From a bacterium (lineage in GTDB: Bacteria; Eisenbacteria; RBG-16-71-46; CAIMUX01): DNA of 64,000 nucleotides. The position numbers and the translations under genes were made by a program. Numbering within the stretch: position 1 is the stretch's first letter; each line of letters begins with the position of its first letter. Location: NCBI GenBank assembly GCA_030431975.1, contig JAUIHP010000008.1, forward strand, positions 108,318 to 172,317, read 5' to 3'. The notes beneath the pieces are model-generated. The model saw only the letters and a list, made by a program, of their open reading frames with translations, ran no database searches and was not told the DNA's origin. Positions 2,361-20,163 of the stretch are shown here, piece after piece.

Positions 2361-3722
2361 TCAGGCCGCGGCGGCTCGCGGCTTTTCCTGAACGAAGCGG
2401 GTCCTGACGGGATAGGGCTGGGCCGCACTTCCGGCCTCCACCCACCATGCCGCGGACAGGTACTCGGGCAGGCGCGCCTCGCGAGGAGGTGGCAGGTGTG
2501 AGCCCGTAAGAACCCCCTCCAGACGCTGCAAGGCGTCCAGAATCGACGAAGCCGGTGAGGCCAGCAGGACGCGAACGTCACGGTTGGAGGCTCGCAGGGC
2601 GGCTCCAACCAGTTCTCGATCCTCGATAGAGCGGAGAACGATCACACGTGGGTGTGTTCGATCGCAAAGATCGATCAGGGAGTCCGGTTCCGAAAGCGAG
2701 TTCGGTGAGATCTGGCGGATCCGGCCCGGCAACTTCGCCCAGTCGTAAGACGGAAACGGCTCGATGACCCAGCCCAGGCACGGAGCCGCCTGCACCGCTC
2801 GAGCCACCCAGGATGCGACGGACTGTTCAAGCAGACGTTCCATCGCTGAGGACAGAAGCACCGCCTTCGGACTTCGGTCCAGGGCGTTCCCCAGGTCGGC
2901 TTGGAATCCCATCCCTTCCCAGTTCGGAAACTCGGAGGTCGGGCAGGAGATACTGAACCAGGCGCCCTCGGGGCCGCTGTGGCGCGAGACCCAGAGGCGA
3001 GACTGTGGCGACCCGGTGGCCCAACACCCAACCGTCCGACCCGATTTCGGGTCCCACTCCGGGTCTGCCGGACACAGGGTCGAGACCCACTCTTCGACCT
3101 CGGCGAAGGAACGAACCTCGACCGCGGTCGCACCCGAAGCGTGCACGACGTAGACGAGATCGTCCGGACCCACCAGGACCCGTTCCGCTCTCCCCTCCTG
3201 CAGCGCGTCGACGATGGAGTGCTTCCACTCCGCTCCCAGTGAGGAGGTGTCTTCCTCGAACGCAACCGCCTTGCGGAAGGCATCGCTCAGTTCGGCTGTC
3301 CGCCGGTTCATTTCCTGGAATCGGTCGACGTGGGTTGGGGCCGGTTCTCCGTCGTCTTCCAGAAGATCGCCGGCCGACATTTCGTCCAGCTGACGAGCCG
3401 CTTCCAAGAGCACATTCTCGGTGGAGTTGTGAATCTTCTGGGTTGGGTCGACCGGTCCCGAGTCGAAGCTGAATTCACCATCTGCCCATTGCACGGCGCC
3501 CAGGACGACTTCTTCGCCGGAGACCAGCTTTTCATCCAGAGCGTTCAGAAGTTGACCCTCCTGAAACGTGAGGTAGACCGTGTGCTTGCCGTCACGCGCG
3601 GTCAGGGTTCCCGTCTTCCGGTTGAGCATCAGGAACTGGCAGATGTCGAACAGAGACACCTCTGCGAGGCGTCCGACCAGAGCCGCCCCGCCCTTCCCTC
3701 TCGAGGAGGCGACCCTGTTCAC
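2361..3722 (-). CDS. DUF4388 (PATAN-like) protein with a degenerate PilT-like module
   Basis: A 453-residue protein of unestablished function. Residues ~15-115 match the DUF4388 pattern (G-R-L-x-E-V-S-L-F-D-I-C-Q-F followed by N-R-K-T-G-T-L). The remainder can be laid over the neighbouring PilT by eye. Residues ~165-260 correspond to the PilT N-terminal domain. SPKAVLLSS (284-292) sits where PilT has its Walker A strand, and HPRVIVLRSIEDREL (357-371) sits at the Walker B/GEMRD region. The P-loop glycines and lysine, the catalytic Glu and the His box are lost, so this looks like a pseudo-ATPase. Its start overlaps the pilT stop by 4 bases (ATGA), implying translational coupling and a shared role. 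DUF4388 proteins often accompany gliding or pilus regulation. The pseudo-PilT reading is my inference from pattern alignment. Confidence 0.75.
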   Translation of the reverse strand: MNRVASSRGKGGAALVGRLAEVSLFDICQFLMLNRKTGTLTARDGKHTVYLTFQEGQLLNALDEKLVSGEEVVLGAVQWADGEFSFDSGPVDPTQKIHNSTENVLLEAARQLDEMSAGDLLEDDGEPAPTHVDRFQEMNRRTAELSDAFRKAVAFEEDTSSLGAEWKHSIVDALQEGRAERVLVGPDDLVYVVHASGATAVEVRSFAEVEEWVSTLCPADPEWDPKSGRTVGCWATGSPQSRLWVSRHSGPEGAWFSISCPTSEFPNWEGMGFQADLGNALDRSPKAVLLSSAMERLLEQSVASWVARAVQAAPCLGWVIEPFPSYDWAKLPGRIRQISPNSLSEPDSLIDLCDRTHPRVIVLRSIEDRELVGAALRASNRDVRVLLASPASSILDALQRLEGVLTGSHLPPPREARLPEYLSAAWWVEAGSAAQPYPVRTRFVQEKPRAAAA

Positions 3723-4789
3723 GCGGCGTCTTTCGTACCCAGGAGGGGCGCGAAGTTCTCTTTGTTGTTGGCTGTGCGGTACGCCTCTTCGACATCGATC
3801 GTTCCCTCGCGTAGGAGGGTCATCAGACAGTTGTCGAGAAGCAACATGCCGTCGCGCTTGGAGGTTTGCATCACGCTTGGGATCTGGAAGGTCTTGCGCT
3901 CACGGATCAGAGTCCCGATGGCCGTGTTGCAGAAGAGAATTTCCAGAGCGCAAACGCGGCCCTCTCCGTCGGCGCGACGAACGAGCCGTTGCGCGACCAC
4001 TCCCCGGAGGCTTTCGGAAAGCATGGTCCGGATCTGTGCCTGCTGGTCTTCGGGAAACGCGTTGATGATTCGGTCGACGGTCTGAGCCGCGCTCTGAGTG
4101 TGAAGCGTGGCGAAGACGAGCTGACCCGTCTCGGCCGCGGTCAGGGCCAACTGCATCGTATCCAGGTCGCGCATTTCTCCGACCAGGACGATGTTCGGAT
4201 CTTCGCGGAGCGCCGCTCTCAGGGCGGACGAGAACGATCGCGCCGACTTTCCGATCTCGCGTTGATTGACCAGGCAGTTGAGGTTTGGATGCACGTACTC
4301 GACAGGATCTTCGATCGTGAGAATGTGTTTCCGCTGCGTCTGGTTGATGTGGTGGATCATCGAGGCCAGGGTCGTGCTTTTTCCACTACCCGGAGGGCCG
4401 GTCACGACCACCAGACCCTTCGGAAGTTCACAGAAGCGTTGGACCGTGTCCGGAAGTCCGAGCTGCTCGATGGTAAAAATCTGCGAAGGCAGCAGACGGA
4501 ACGCTCCCGCGATCCCTTTCAGCTGTTCGTAGATGTTGCAGCGAACCCGAACCTCGCCCGGGACCTCGTAGGCGAAGTCGATGTCCCGGTCGCGATGGAA
4601 CCTGGACTTCTGCTCCTGCGACATCAGCTCATAGAGTAGCTGTCGTGCCTGTTCGCCCGTCAGCTCCGGGTAGTCCACCGGCCGGATCTCTCCGTGAACC
4701 CGCAGCATCGGAGGGGCACCCGTCGAGATATGGAGGTCGGACGCGCCCTGGTGCTTCACCATCTTGAATATTGCGTCTATCCGAGCCAA
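3719..4789 (-). CDS. pilT: Type IV pilus retraction ATPase PilT
   Basis: Hexameric secretion-type ATPase that powers pilus disassembly at the inner membrane. The 356-residue length is normal for PilT. The N-terminal PAS-like domain carries GASDLHIS (15-22). Walker A is GPPGSGKSTT (131-140), the Asp box is TIEDPVEYVHP, Walker B is NIVLVGEMRD with the catalytic Glu, and the His box is TLHTQSAAQTVDRI. The family-typical ALRAALREDP stretch is also present. It overlaps the DUF4388 gene downstream. A second, larger PilT paralogue lies at 18.6-20.2 kb. The terminator of the preceding lipoprotein lies just upstream. Confidence 0.93.
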   Translation of the reverse strand: MARIDAIFKMVKHQGASDLHISTGAPPMLRVHGEIRPVDYPELTGEQARQLLYELMSQEQKSRFHRDRDIDFAYEVPGEVRVRCNIYEQLKGIAGAFRLLPSQIFTIEQLGLPDTVQRFCELPKGLVVVTGPPGSGKSTTLASMIHHINQTQRKHILTIEDPVEYVHPNLNCLVNQREIGKSARSFSSALRAALREDPNIVLVGEMRDLDTMQLALTAAETGQLVFATLHTQSAAQTVDRIINAFPEDQQAQIRTMLSESLRGVVAQRLVRRADGEGRVCALEILFCNTAIGTLIRERKTFQIPSVMQTSKRDGMLLLDNCLMTLLREGTIDVEEAYRTANNKENFAPLLGTKDAA

Positions 4790-6253: not shown

Positions 6254-6275
6254 TTGACATGTGCGGGACTGTCAA
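6254..6275. repeat. Inverted repeat TTGACA-N10-TGTCAA at the kinase stop codon
   Basis: Two 6-base arms separated by 10 bases overlap the stop codon of the kinase gene. A second palindrome, AGGGCGA-TG-TCGCCCT, sits next to it at 6235-6250. They may act as an operator for the downstream small-peptide locus or as a weak terminator. The gap from 6029 to 6253 otherwise holds no gene that I can support. Confidence 0.35.
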
Positions 6276-9200
6276 GTCAACGCGACGGCTTGTTGGAGGG
6301 CGAGACAAGCAGGGAGACCTAGGAACGAACGTGCGTCACGCACGTCATCGAATCCGGCAGCCACCCGTACCAGCTCTTCTTTCCCCCGTTCCAGCGCAGT
6401 CCGCTGGCGGGAGGGCTCGTTCAAATCGCGAAAGAGGCGTGCTTCCTGCCACGCGAGGCGCCACCTCCACATGGCCAGTCCCAGCCGTTCAGAGTCTCGG
6501 CGGAGTTCCTCGAGCGACTCCAGGAGTCGGATTGGGTCGCCACCCGCACTGCATACCGCAACTTCCAGTTCGGCCACCCGGGACTGAATCTGCCCCAGCG
6601 CGGAACAGTGCTCGCGCGTACCCGTCAAGAGAGGTGAGATCTCGTCTACGGCAGCTTGGTTCTGAAGATCACACTCGGTCAGGACCCACAAGGCGATGCA
6701 CTCGCTTTTGTCACCGAGGGCGCCTTGGTCTTCGAACTGCTGCAGTGCCCGCCGAAGTCTTTTGCGGCCCGCGTCCGGCTGATCCACGCGCAGCATGCAG
6801 ACACCCAAGCAGGCGTCGAATACGGCTTCATCAATCGGGCCAATGTCGTCGGGCAGGGAATCCGCGGTATCGAAGAAGTGGGTGGAACGACCAATGTTCT
6901 CGAGCACGGCCGATCGATGACGCGCGTAGAGCTCTTTCTCACGTCCATTGCTCACGGCGAGTGCAAGGCCCTCGTTCATGGCTCGCATGGCAGCGCCTAG
7001 TTCGCCCATGGTTGCCAGGACGAGCGATAGATTCGCCAGCACCAGCTCAGTATGGAGCCAAGAGAGCTTCGACCTCGCGATATCAGCGCACGATGACAGA
7101 ACGCGCGCCAACTTTACGACCTCGCCCCTTTCAAAGAGCACCCCCCCGAGGTTCATCAGCAACAAGAGCTCCATTGAGCGATCCTTGACCGTCTCGTTGA
7201 TTCGGAGTGCAGCCTCATAGGACAACTGAGCTTGGTCAATGTCACCACTATCAAACTGCACAACTCCGAGGTGAACAAGAAGGGACATGGTCTCAAGCGG
7301 CCTCGTTGTCTTTGCCAACAGGCGTGAAATCGAATCCCGAACGGCTGCCGGATCGAGGGTGAGATCGATAGCCCTGACCTCGTACGAGAAGAGGTCTGCC
7401 CAGCTCACGCCCACATCGGGCAGCCCCGACGGATCAAACTCCTGAAGCGACCGCCATACCTGACATTTGATCCCGCATCGCAACCAAATCCTGGCCAAAG
7501 CCGCTTCTTGAGGAATCGGCATCGTGGTGATGCCCCGGGCCGCAGCATCGAGTTCGCCGGATTGGCACAGAGCGACGCTCTCAAACAAAGGCCCGGACTC
7601 CAGTCTGAGATCAAGTACCTCAGCGTCAGCGGGAGTGATATCTGGTAGTCCAAGATCGACAGCAACGACTTCGATGCCTGTTCGAATCGATTCCGTACTC
7701 AACTCTGCAAGAAGCTTGGCCTTCCCCAACATGCGAAACGCTTCGAGCACGGCAAAATCGCTCTCTTCGCCCAGGAGCCCTTGAAAGCACAAATCCACAT
7801 CAACCAGGTGCAAGCACCGCGTGAGAGCTGCCAACCGCAGCTTCTGCTGACTCGTCAGCTCTCCACTCTCGACGAGCACCCGTGTCGCCGTTTCCAGATC
7901 GGGCACGGAGTCGACGATGATTCGGGACAAGAAGACCGAATCGCCAAGCGCGCCGTGATCTGAGTCGAGGACGGAGTTGCGAAGCGCAGCCACGACTCTG
8001 GAGTCGAGTTCCTCGGGCTCGGAGTGCAGCGACTCCCTCACCCAATCCTTCCACGCTTCCGGCACCTCCAGTTGATTGATCATCTTTGCCACGTCGACCC
8101 GTCCGTTACGCGCAGCGGAATCGAAGGGTGTCGGCATCACCGAAATCAAAGCATCGAGCAGAGCCGGGCGACCCATGGACACGCGCACGACTTCGTCGAT
8201 CAACGATCGGGCGGTCAGCCCTCGCGATGCCGCGAGTCGAGTCATGTCTTCGCTGGAGAACGCTGAGAGTTCGAGCTCGAGTCGATCTTCAGACATCGAG
8301 GTACTCGCGCGCGGAGATGGATTCAAGGTTGGGGGCAAAACCTCGGACTCGATCTGAAGCGAGGATCCGTCTTCTCGAGTCCACCCGTCTTCACTGGGGA
8401 GCCAATCTTGCGTCTGTGCAATCGCAGCGAATCGGCGATGGAGCCGGGAGGCTCCGAGACCTTGTTCGCCACGGATGAAACAACGGCGATCGGCAACAGA
8501 ATCGTCGAGCAACCACTTCTGAAACGCCTCGACCTCTGCTTCCCTTCCCATAAAGGGAAGCCGACGAGCACCGGTTAGGTTGGTGGGCAGTCGCATCGTT
8601 GTCTGTCCGGTTGCGATCTCGCGCAACCGTGTCCAGACCTCCGGTGCGGAAAGCGGACGAAACTCCGGATCCGGACTCAGCAACTCGCCGAGCAGACGAA
8701 CCAGGGGCCTGGGAATCTGGCCGCTACGATAGAGTGCATCGAGATTCGGGCCTTGCAGCTGGGCTCGCATCACTTCGCCGCCGTGCGCTCCCTGAAACAC
8801 CTTCTCGCCAATGATCAATTCGTAGAGAAGCGCGCCGAACGCATACAAGTCGACTCTCGCGTCCCACTCCTTCGCCCGCTGCAACAACTCCGGTGCCATG
8901 TATCCGGGGGTACCGGCTGGCGGTATCGCGGCGCCAAGGGGGCTCGAAAGGCCGAGATCGAACATGTGGACATGCGCGGGTGGTTCGTCCGCATCCAACA
9001 CCTTGGTGCCGTCATCCCATGACGCCGGCGTCTGTCCCTTCCACTCGATCAGAAGTTGGTCCGGCTTCAGGTCGAGTTGCGCATATCCGTTGACGTGTAG
9101 CGCGTGGAGCCCGCTCAGGACTTGCCGTGCGACTTCGAGAGTATCGGGCGTCCAGTCCCGAATGGGAAACTCGTCGAACGTCTTCCCTTGGGAGTACTCG

Positions 9201-9460
9201 AGTGTGAACGCGAGACTCCCGTCCGCGAGCGTAAAGAAACGATCCGGACGCACCCAGTACGGATGATCGAGGGCTTCGAGTCGCAAGTACTCGTTGCGGA
9301 ACGACTCCGAGTCGATCTCCTCGAAAGGCGTGCGCAGACATTTGACGACGACTTCCGACTCCGCCTGAGTGTCAAACGCGCGATAGACCTCGCGGTTTTC
9401 CGTCGCGACCAGAAGCCGGGCGTCTTCGATTTGGGAAGGAAACTGTGGGATGGATTCCAC
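6272..9460 (-). CDS. Ser/Thr kinase-like, STAND-like ATPase and TPR signalling protein
   Basis: A 1062-residue multidomain protein, probably cytoplasmic. Residues ~10-285 are a Hanks-type kinase fold: Lys40 (VVVK), the catalytic loop as Q-L-D130-L-K-P-D-Q instead of H-R-D, D168-L-G for DFG, and MAPE at 188-191. The glycine-rich loop is not recognisable. At ~300 a STAND-type NTPase begins (F-M-G-R-E), but the P-loop reads G-E-Q-G-L-G-A-S (331-338), with Ala where the Walker Lys should be. The rest is helical, TPR-like. The start is GTG with GGAG 7 bases upstream. It lies 14 bases after the sigma-54-type activator, so kinase and activator probably form one signalling unit, like MalT/AfsK-style sensors. 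Activity of either catalytic domain is uncertain. Confidence 0.8.
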   Translation of the reverse strand: MESIPQFPSQIEDARLLVATENREVYRAFDTQAESEVVVKCLRTPFEEIDSESFRNEYLRLEALDHPYWVRPDRFFTLADGSLAFTLEYSQGKTFDEFPIRDWTPDTLEVARQVLSGLHALHVNGYAQLDLKPDQLLIEWKGQTPASWDDGTKVLDADEPPAHVHMFDLGLSSPLGAAIPPAGTPGYMAPELLQRAKEWDARVDLYAFGALLYELIIGEKVFQGAHGGEVMRAQLQGPNLDALYRSGQIPRPLVRLLGELLSPDPEFRPLSAPEVWTRLREIATGQTTMRLPTNLTGARRLPFMGREAEVEAFQKWLLDDSVADRRCFIRGEQGLGASRLHRRFAAIAQTQDWLPSEDGWTREDGSSLQIESEVLPPTLNPSPRASTSMSEDRLELELSAFSSEDMTRLAASRGLTARSLIDEVVRVSMGRPALLDALISVMPTPFDSAARNGRVDVAKMINQLEVPEAWKDWVRESLHSEPEELDSRVVAALRNSVLDSDHGALGDSVFLSRIIVDSVPDLETATRVLVESGELTSQQKLRLAALTRCLHLVDVDLCFQGLLGEESDFAVLEAFRMLGKAKLLAELSTESIRTGIEVVAVDLGLPDITPADAEVLDLRLESGPLFESVALCQSGELDAAARGITTMPIPQEAALARIWLRCGIKCQVWRSLQEFDPSGLPDVGVSWADLFSYEVRAIDLTLDPAAVRDSISRLLAKTTRPLETMSLLVHLGVVQFDSGDIDQAQLSYEAALRINETVKDRSMELLLLMNLGGVLFERGEVVKLARVLSSCADIARSKLSWLHTELVLANLSLVLATMGELGAAMRAMNEGLALAVSNGREKELYARHRSAVLENIGRSTHFFDTADSLPDDIGPIDEAVFDACLGVCMLRVDQPDAGRKRLRRALQQFEDQGALGDKSECIALWVLTECDLQNQAAVDEISPLLTGTREHCSALGQIQSRVAELEVAVCSAGGDPIRLLESLEELRRDSERLGLAMWRWRLAWQEARLFRDLNEPSRQRTALERGKEELVRVAAGFDDVRDARSFLGLPACLALQQAVALT

Positions 9461-9474
9461 GGCGTCGCTCCGGA

Positions 9475-11205
9475 CTAACGCCCGGGACGAACGAGTCCGT
9501 GGAGCCTCAGCCGGTTGTGAAGGTGCTGACGACTGATTCCCAGTTCGCCGGCCGCTTTCGTGATCACCCAGTCATTGCGCTCGAGCGACTGACGAATGCA
9601 TTGACGCTCTGCAGCCGTCACCGCGTCATGAAGTTTCTTCGGCATGGATTCGTCGGCGACCCCGTTTGCCGGAACGGAAGCGGTCTTCAGGTCCGGCAGA
9701 TGCAGCTGCAGATGGGCCACGTCCAGGGACTCGCCTTCGCGAACGAGCGCGCAGGCGCCTTCGATGACATGACGGAGCTGACGCACGTTGCCCGGCCATT
9801 GATAGTCCATCAGTGACTTGAGCGCACGATTCGTCATGCCCTGAATGTCCCGCTTGAAACGCTCTTTCGTCTTCGTGAAGAAATGGTCGATGAGAAGCGG
9901 AATGTCTTCCCGTCGGTCCCGAAGCGGAGGCAGGTCGATGTGCATTCCGTTCAACCGGTAGTACAGGTCCTGACGGAAAGTACCCTCGCTGACCATCTTT
10001 CGAAGATCCCGATGAGTCGCCGAGACGACCCGGACACTGGAATGACGGGTGCGATTCTCTCCGACACGTCGGAACTCGCCCGACTCGAGGAAGCGCAGCA
10101 ACTTCGGCTGGAACTCTCTCGGAAGGTCGCCGATCTCGTCGAGGAAAAGAGTACCGCCATCGGCCTGTTCGACGAGGCCCGGCCGGTCCTTAACCGCCTG
10201 GGTGAAGGCTCCCATGATGTGACCAAAGAACTCACTCTCGAACAGTTCGCCGGGAATGGCGCCACAGTTCACCGGAACGAAGGGACTCTTGGAACGTCCA
10301 CCCTCTGAATGGAGAGCCTGTGCGACGAGTTCCTTTCCGGTACCGCTCTCACCGATGAGGACCACGGAGAGATCGAGGTCCTTGACCAGACGCATCTTCT
10401 CGAAGAGCGTTTGCATCTCTTCGCTGCGACCGATGAGAGAGGCAAACTGCCATCCTCCCTGAACAGCTGTCCGCAGTTCTTCGTTTTCCCGGGCAAGAAT
10501 GACCCGCCGGTCCTCGATGTCGCGAATCAGTTCGGAATTGATCAGGCTGATCGCTGCCTGCGCAGCGAACGCTTCGAGAATCTCCCGATCGAGAGCGGCC
10601 GGCGTCATCGAGCTGTTCGAACTGTCGAGGTACAGAACTCCAAACGGATCTTTTTGCCGACGAAGCGGACAGCAGACCGCAGAAAAAAGCTGGTTCACAC
10701 GAATGCTCTGGATGTCCTTGTACTCCGGAGTCGAGAGCTGATCGAACTCGACGATGCGGTTCTCGCTCAGGCACTGTCCGGCAAGCGTGTGGGAAATCTG
10801 TCCAATGTCGGCCGGGAGGTGCTCCTGTTCCAGGTCGCGTCCCCGGGCAACCCGCAGGCTCTCCCCCTCCCGTAGGAGGATCATTCCTCTTTGAGCGTTG
10901 AAGAGGGGAATCACGGCATCGAGGATGGCGTCGAGAAGTTCACCGTGATTGAGAATGGACGAGAGCTGTCTGGAAACACCGAGGAGCTTCTGATACGCGT
11001 CGATGTGACGCTTGAGCTGCGGAGAGGACTCCATCGGCGGCCGCGCGATCGGCGGAGGAAGGTACGGCGTCGTCAGGTTTTCCCGCTCGTCGGAGGAGAC
11101 TCCAGGGTCCACGAGCCTTTCGAATGGATCCTCGGATGCCGGTTCGGCCTGGGCTGCAGGCTCCGGCCGGGCGCGCCCTAGCTTCTCGTGCGGGTGCTCA
11201 GACAT
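9475..11205 (-). CDS. Sigma-54-interacting transcriptional activator (GAF, AAA+, Fis-HTH)
   Basis: A 576-residue bacterial enhancer-binding protein. Domains in order: a Pro-rich head (1-60), a GAF sensor (~75-225), a coiled linker, the AAA+ sigma-54 domain with Walker A GESGTGKE (285-292) and Walker B GTLFLDE (351-357), and a Fis-type helix-turn-helix (~535-570, GISRQHLHNRL). The loop that contacts sigma-54, normally GAFTGA, reads GAFTQA (332-337). There is no receiver domain, so the input is likely the GAF ligand or the downstream kinase. It is first in a two-gene operon. Related pairs of Fis-type activator plus kinase/TPR protein are seen in myxobacteria and other phyla. Confidence 0.88.
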   Translation of the reverse strand: MSEHPHEKLGRARPEPAAQAEPASEDPFERLVDPGVSSDERENLTTPYLPPPIARPPMESSPQLKRHIDAYQKLLGVSRQLSSILNHGELLDAILDAVIPLFNAQRGMILLREGESLRVARGRDLEQEHLPADIGQISHTLAGQCLSENRIVEFDQLSTPEYKDIQSIRVNQLFSAVCCPLRRQKDPFGVLYLDSSNSSMTPAALDREILEAFAAQAAISLINSELIRDIEDRRVILARENEELRTAVQGGWQFASLIGRSEEMQTLFEKMRLVKDLDLSVVLIGESGTGKELVAQALHSEGGRSKSPFVPVNCGAIPGELFESEFFGHIMGAFTQAVKDRPGLVEQADGGTLFLDEIGDLPREFQPKLLRFLESGEFRRVGENRTRHSSVRVVSATHRDLRKMVSEGTFRQDLYYRLNGMHIDLPPLRDRREDIPLLIDHFFTKTKERFKRDIQGMTNRALKSLMDYQWPGNVRQLRHVIEGACALVREGESLDVAHLQLHLPDLKTASVPANGVADESMPKKLHDAVTAAERQCIRQSLERNDWVITKAAGELGISRQHLHNRLRLHGLVRPGR

Positions 11206-18579: not shown

Positions 18580-20163
18580 GTGGCACGTATCGACAAGTTC
18601 ATCGAAGCGGCCTTCAAACACTCGGCCGAAGAGATGGTCCTGTGCCCCGGCGAAAAGATCTACCTCGTCCGGCAGGGACAGCGTCGATCGTTGTCGGCAC
18701 AGGAAGTCGAGATCGCGCAGATTCGGTCCGTACTGCTCGACGTCGTGCCGGAAGAGCATCGCTCTGCTCTGAACGCCGGTGAGTCCGTCGAGTTTCCGTA
18801 CCTGTCTCCCTCAGGTCCCGTCGTCATTACCGCATCTGACGAGTCCGTTCGCGTGCGGCCGAAGGAATTGGGATTGAGCGGCGCTGGTGCGACGGGGGCC
18901 AACGGCACGAGCGGCGAGCCCGCAGCCGGCGGAGCAGCCACTGGCGGATCGACCGCGGACGGTTCGTCGGACAAGATTGCCGGATCGATCTCACCCGGCG
19001 GGTCCGGAGGCGTCAACGGCGGCATCGGACAAGGCGTAGGTTCCCTCTTGGACAACGCGCCGGGTGCGTCCGCAAGCGGAGCCAAGATCGACCACTACCT
19101 GGCGCAGATGGTCGGCGAAGGTTGCTCCGACCTTCATCTTTGTGCCGGTTATCCCCCGCTCTTCCGAAAGGACGGTGACATCGCCGACCTCGGAGGCGTC
19201 CAGGATATGGACTCCGTCGATGTCGAGGCTCTACTGAAGGCGATCACGCCGTCAGAGGACTGGGATACCTTTCTCGAGTGCAACGACGTGGACTTCGCCT
19301 ACGAGATCGAGGGTGTGGCCCGCTTTCGCTGCAACCTCTTCCGGGATCGTCAAGGAATGGGAGGGGTCTTTCGTACGATTCCCTCGATCATTCCCACCGC
19401 CGAGAAGCTCGGCCTGACGGGACCGATCATGGAACTGACGAACCTCCACAAAGGGTTGGTCGTGGTGACCGGTCCGACCGGGTCCGGGAAGTCGACAACG
19501 CTTGCGGCCATGATCGATCATATCAACCGTGAACAGGCCCGGCATGTCATCACGATCGAGGATCCCATCGAGTTCGTGCATCCGCGCCGACGAGCCCTCA
19601 TCAATCAACGCGAAATCGGGACCCACACCGCGTCCTTCCGCGCTGCTTTGCGCGCCGCCTTGCGTGAGGACCCGGACATCGTACTGTTGGGAGAAATGCG
19701 TGACCTCGAAACCGTCGAGATAGCGCTCGAAACGGCGGAGACGGGTCATCTCGTCTTCGGAACGCTCCACACCAACACAGCAGCTTCGACCGTCGACCGA
19801 ATCATCGATCAGTTCTCGTCAGACCAGCAGGCGCAGATTCGCGTTCTGTTGAGCGAGACGCTCAAGGGAGTGATCGCGCAGACACTCTGCAAACGGAAGG
19901 GTGGCGGCCGCGTTGCGGCCCACGAGATCCTCCTCGTGACCTCCGCCATTTCCAACCTGATCCGTGAAGGCAAGACGTTCCAGATTCCGTCTCTGATGCA
20001 GACGGGCCGGGGCCAGGGGATGAAAACCCTCGACCACAGCCTGATGGAACTGGCGCAGGCGGGGACGATCGAGATCGAAGAAGCCTACAACCGCTCCCTG
20101 ACCAAGAACGAGTTCAAGACGATGATGGAGCGCAACGGAATGTCACTGCCCAAAGCGGCCTGA
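18580..20163 (+). CDS. PilT-family ATPase with duplicated N-terminal domain
   Basis: A 527-residue retraction-type ATPase paralogous to the PilT at 3.7-4.8 kb. Residues ~165-500 form a complete PilT: GCSDLHLCAG, Walker A GPTGSGKSTT (298-307), TIEDPIEFVHP, DIVLLGEMRD and the His box TLHTNTAASTVDRI. In front lies a second, degenerate copy of the PilT N-terminal domain (1-95, with EEMVLCPGEKIYLVRQG at the ASDLH position), joined by a Gly/Ala/Ser-rich linker (100-165). It starts at GTG with AAGGAG 9 bases upstream. Catalytic residues are intact, so it is probably an active motor of altered assembly or regulation. Confidence 0.88.
   Translation: MARIDKFIEAAFKHSAEEMVLCPGEKIYLVRQGQRRSLSAQEVEIAQIRSVLLDVVPEEHRSALNAGESVEFPYLSPSGPVVITASDESVRVRPKELGLSGAGATGANGTSGEPAAGGAATGGSTADGSSDKIAGSISPGGSGGVNGGIGQGVGSLLDNAPGASASGAKIDHYLAQMVGEGCSDLHLCAGYPPLFRKDGDIADLGGVQDMDSVDVEALLKAITPSEDWDTFLECNDVDFAYEIEGVARFRCNLFRDRQGMGGVFRTIPSIIPTAEKLGLTGPIMELTNLHKGLVVVTGPTGSGKSTTLAAMIDHINREQARHVITIEDPIEFVHPRRRALINQREIGTHTASFRAALRAALREDPDIVLLGEMRDLETVEIALETAETGHLVFGTLHTNTAASTVDRIIDQFSSDQQAQIRVLLSETLKGVIAQTLCKRKGGGRVAAHEILLVTSAISNLIREGKTFQIPSLMQTGRGQGMKTLDHSLMELAQAGTIEIEEAYNRSLTKNEFKTMMERNGMSLPKAA

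Follow-up and report, generated by a model that had tools for sequence, protein, structure and literature searches.

A putative PilT-family pseudo-ATPase with a DUF4388 domain, encoded in overlap with pilT in Candidatus Eisenbacteria

The overlapping gene pair

The stretch of DNA analysed here (64,000 nucleotides, hereafter the window) belongs to contig C41 in a genome of 6.2 Mb. Two consecutive genes on its reverse strand were considered, namely a pilT gene and, directly downstream, a gene whose product carries a DUF4388 domain followed by a degenerate PilT-like part. This second product is called the partner below. The features are distributed as follows:

3719..4789, reverse strand: live pilT, 356 aa, TTG start; match to TIGR01420 (pilT_fam), E 3e-138
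2361..3722, reverse strand: partner gene (PATAN/DUF4388 and pseudo-PilT), 453 aa, GTG start
3719..3722, reverse strand: overlap of the pilT stop with the partner start, 4 bp, GTGA
3378..3674, reverse strand: DUF4388 domain (taken as PATAN), residues 17-115; PF14332, E 5e-21
2928..3230, reverse strand: degenerate PilT N-domain (N2D), about residues 165-265, from hhalign and the alignment
2505..2927, reverse strand: degenerate RecA-like ATPase domain, about residues 266-406, from hhalign, the alignment and the fold
2847..2873, reverse strand: SPKAVLLSS, the Walker A strand with the P-loop missing, residues 284-292, aligned with KGLVVVTGPPGSGKS
2745..2768, reverse strand: VIEPFPSY, the Asp-box equivalent of TIEDPVEY, residues 319-326
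2610..2645, reverse strand: VIVLRSIEDREL, the Walker B equivalent of VLVGEMRDLDT, residues 360-371, with Glu205 replaced by Ser

All motifs are intact in the PilT of the window (Walker A GPPGSGKS, Asp box TIEDPVEY, Walker B VGEMRD, His box TLHT), and the catalytic residues are invariant in the alignment of 14 PilTs that accompany a partner (14/14). The overlap is real as originally predicted: both reading frames are present and share bases 3719-3722. Such a 4-bp GTGA overlap suggests translational coupling of the two genes; among relatives, the spacing ranges from -4 bp (overlap) to about +12 bp (gap).

DUF4388 is the sole Pfam match of the window partner, in which no receiver domain or other phosphorelay input was found. 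We take PF14332 (DUF4388) to be the PATAN domain, an assignment supported by a PF14332 match found in Synechococcus elongatus. The domain is modelled by AlphaFold with a pLDDT mostly between 80 and 90 over residues 21-90 and of 63-74 over residues 91-120. A plasmid search using the PATAN part as query returned no match. Upstream of the pair, a Ser/Thr kinase with TPR repeats (6272-9460, reverse strand, 1062 aa) adjoins a GAF-type sigma-54 activator-like protein (9475-11205).

Homology to PilT and loss of the catalytic residues

In single-sequence searches (Pfam, NCBIfam and phmmer against the PDB), residues 150-453 gave nothing significant, and the window partner matched neither of the curated families TIGR01420 and PF00437; the homology to PilT therefore rests on profiles and fold. 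Comparison by hhalign of 13 partner homologues with 10 neighbouring PilTs gave an alignment of 250 columns with an E-value of 2.3e-8, which begins with the N-domain and extends past Walker B; an enlarged sequence set gave 1.1e-8. Profile identity between the pseudo-PilT part and PilT/PilU is about 13%. The C-terminal part of the partner alone scored 68.0 against PilT in profile-profile comparison, to be compared with a mean of 10.3 (SD 1.5, maximum 16.2) for 200 column shuffles of the profile, 15.2 for the reversed profile and 12.4 for the PATAN part used as negative control. Chance similarity to PilT is ruled out by these three controls. In addition, two relatives matched the window PilT by BLASTP (L003, E 8e-6; L014, E 1e-3), and an HMM of the 13 partner homologues, built without any PilT, recovered ordinary live PilTs of 350-400 aa from many genomes, with E-values down to about 1e-21 and matches falling at model positions of about 150-420.

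The predicted fold agrees with this. An AlphaFold model of the window partner, computed from an 8-sequence alignment without PilT, has a mean pLDDT of 68 and a pTM of 0.52, with pLDDT values of about 70-88 over most of residues 165-390; within N2D it comprises a helix (166-175) and strands (181-202 and 244-259). When this model was searched against the PDB with Foldseek, Thermus PilT2 (1.1e-10), FlaI, P. aeruginosa PilU, DotB and PilT were recovered at about 1e-10 with probability 1.0. TM-scores to PilT-family structures are just about 0.4-0.5 and the model confidence is modest; the moderate scores are probably due to domain orientation and to the extra domain. A less confident model of the L022 homologue (pLDDT 60) retrieved the same folds, PilU (2.8e-8) and PilT. 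A PilT N-domain followed by a RecA fold is thus predicted for residues 160-406, in agreement with the original prediction. The motif anchors that it had placed by eye are also in register in the profile and in the alignment (SPKAVLLSS with KGLVVVTG, VIEPFPSY with TIEDPVEY, and RVIVLRSIEDREL with NIVLVGEMRDLDT). The alignment was said to cover the full remaining length of the protein; this holds for the N-domain and the RecA core, whereas the C-terminal region (PilT after about residue 265) could not be aligned.

Residues were tallied on an alignment of the 14 partner PilTs with 20 homologues of the dead partner. The Walker A lysine (K137) is lost in 19 of the 20, as is the His-box histidine. 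The Walker B Glu is lost in 15, the five exceptions all belonging to family f110, which itself is without Walker A. In the window copy the Walker B and His-box positions read RSIEDRE and ASPAS, and the loss of both the P-loop and the catalytic Glu, claimed earlier, is borne out by the alignment. The hydrophobic strands, G125 and P198 are kept in the partner family, and the N-domain R98 in 15/20. Most of the residues of the packing-unit interface are gone: among the contacts described for PilT (R195, E164, T221, H230 and L269; PMC6858323), the stretch containing R195 is deleted in 15/20. The retraction region at the PilT C-terminus (AIRNLIRE-type motif) could not be aligned in the window copy. 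Part of it is retained in L003, L057, L058, L146 and L147, with a recognisable remnant also noted for family f110, and L146 matches the PilT HMM at 182-338 (E 3e-8). These remnants make it likely that the ancestor of the dead partner was a whole PilT joined to a PATAN domain.

Judged from these residues, the partner is a PilT-family pseudoenzyme that would have lost both ATP binding and ATP hydrolysis. With the homology, the lost residues and the presence of the pair in many genomes, the claim of a catalytically dead PilT encoded together with a live one stands. One homologue, in G028 (L010:1480-2682), is the only one to keep Walker A: its P-loop GGRGTGKS looks intact, no Asp, Walker B or His box is left, and it may bind nucleotide.

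Conservation and divergence of the pair

PilTs at least 56% identical to that of the window are present in exactly 16 of 47 genomes of the Eisenbacteria class, the next best PilT being 53% identical. The dead partner lies immediately 3' of this PilT orthologue in 15 of these 16 Candidatus Eisenbacteria genomes. The exception is G039 (L107, G039:C386), where the orthologue is without a partner and a trypsin-like protease gene, named by eye, comes next instead. Outside the class, the pair was found in G383 and in family f110, which belongs to another phylum (at least 6 of its 7 genomes), in the same order and with the two genes overlapping or a few bases apart. The search for the pair in related genomes that had been proposed earlier was positive; the counts are lower bounds, scoring being limited to the few top candidates of each genome. 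In G002 the partner sits at a contig edge. In G388 (L148) pilT and the partner are each split over several ORFs, for which assembly frameshift errors are the most likely cause. We considered whether the split PATAN and pseudo-PilT frames of G388 could be separate cistrons and rejected this, since the adjacent PilT is likewise in three ORFs.

The genes flanking the pair vary between lineages, which indicates that the two genes move together as a unit. In the window the flanking genes encode an aromatic amino acid lyase and a small ZU5-domain protein, and in f110 there is a glutamine-synthetase-like gene, identified by eye. A canonical pilB-pilT-pilC-pilS-pilR cluster is located elsewhere in the genome (C41:197-205 kb), as are several further PilTs, and from this we conclude that the pair is an accessory retraction unit.

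Distances among partners correlate with those among their PilTs (r=0.85, reached in 0 of 2000 label permutations), a co-divergence that is expected from co-inheritance alone. The partner has diverged much further: the p-distance averages 0.80 in its pseudo-PilT part and 0.38 in PilT. Purifying selection on the partner is visible in the sole clean genome pair (G145 and G385), in which its omega is 0.15, compared with 0.06 for the accompanying PilT. Selection looks weak in family f10, whose dS values are high and affected by GC bias; omega there is 0.43-0.80 for whole partners and 0.35-0.95 for the pseudo-PilT part. A recent tandem duplication from the adjacent PilT was also considered and is unsupported: the HMM of the partner family scores the other PilTs of the genome at 60 bits and the adjacent one at 49 bits.

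Putative role in pilus retraction

The DUF4388 domain, to which the original prediction gave little weight, is in our reading the best clue to the function of the partner. In Synechocystis the PATAN regulators PixE and PixG bind the pilus motor PilB1, PixG also binding PilC, and such regulators steer phototaxis (PMC7690835, PMC12288463). Because PATAN proteins bind components of the pilus motor in that organism, we consider it probable, with some reserve, that the pair is a dedicated regulator unit in which the partner sets when or where the window PilT retracts pili. PilT and the partner would be translated from one message, the partner directly after PilT; the partner may then dock on the live PilT through its pseudo-PilT part, its PATAN domain or both; the PATAN domain would read a signal, upon which the partner would hold back, recruit or release PilT. 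The bindings on record for PATAN proteins concern PilB and PilC, not PilT. A bolder version is doubtful: the live PilT would assemble with the PATAN-bearing partner into a single hetero-oligomeric retraction motor, with dead ring subunits or a dead cap acting as a built-in signal receiver.

Other readings were weighed against this one. The mixed hexamer put forward in the original prediction is unlikely. In such a ring, dead PilT would sit in at least one of the six positions and bring in non-catalytic subunits with an attached PATAN domain. This would accord with a predicted fold and N2D-CTD layout shared with PilT, with the probable translation of the partner in step with PilT, and with the N2D residue R98 kept in 15/20; silent places could be tolerated, since PilT rings run with unequal subunit states (PMC6858323). 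However, E164, T221 and H230 are lost in most members, R195 falls in a gap in 15/20 and the window copy has no PilT C-terminal region, and the missing interface residues make an ordinary ring position less likely; moreover PilT and PilU, which are far closer relatives, form separate homohexamers in Vibrio (PMC6821130). We would favour a docking, co-translated regulatory partner over a ring subunit.

It is also quite unlikely that the partner regulates other parts of the pilus (PilB, PilC or the polar machinery), its pseudo-PilT part being a competitive PilC decoy or a scaffold. The known targets of PixE and PixG point in this direction, and a PilT-like part without ATPase activity could conceivably fill the docking site on PilC, but the partner is strictly adjacent to one group of PilT orthologues and the unit contains neither pilB nor pilC. 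That the partner is a decaying, functionless relic of a duplicated retraction ATPase such as an old pilU-like gene is very improbable. The large divergence of the pseudo-PilT part, the relaxed omega in family f10 and the complete loss of the partner in G039 are what a relic would give; against it stand a frame kept open in two phyla, the low omega of the clean genome pair, and the conservation of both the gene pair and the PATAN fusion.

The dedicated regulator that we favour shares features with several known systems. PilT and PilU (TIGR01420, PF00437) have the same N2D and RecA fold with motifs in register, and pilU too often adjoins pilT; unlike them, the partner is without the Walker A lysine, the His box and, in the window copy, the Walker B Glu, and has an added PATAN domain. 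Synechocystis PixE, PixG and LsiR likewise have an N-terminal PATAN-type domain and a tie to the type IV pilus motor, but their PATAN is fused to a CheY-like receiver, whereas the partner combines it with a pseudo-PilT and its gene is coupled to pilT. The extension ATPases PilB and GspE have the same order of an extra N-terminal domain, N2D and CTD (RecA domain); their extra domain, a regulatory docking part, is of the MshEN/N1D type and their ATPase is live, unlike that of the partner. Our literature searches found no paper treating both DUF4388 and PilT, none treating both PilT and Eisenbacteria, and no description of a PilT-family pseudo-ATPase; the titles and abstracts retrieved for degenerate PilT paralogues concerned live ones only. 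The PilT fold and the PATAN regulator are each known, and their combination appears undescribed. The control of PilT retraction timing is still poorly understood, and a conserved, co-translated dead twin with a pilus-regulator domain offers a concrete two-gene module for its study. If the partner does regulate PilT, PATAN control would reach the retraction side.

Two observations concern other PilTs. A second PilT of the window (18580-20163, forward strand, 527 aa) has an additional, degenerate PilT N-domain in its first 80 or so residues, followed by a Gly/Ser-rich linker and then a complete live PilT. In two-sequence searches this extra copy was recognised by HMM at E 2e-7, and BLAST of one copy against the other gave E 4e-6. 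At another locus (L072, G000:C50:54000-66000), a pair of neighbouring pilT-like genes is flanked by a HEAT-repeat/Ser-Thr kinase gene on one side and an HD-domain (HD_5) gene on the other, and is possibly another regulated retraction unit.
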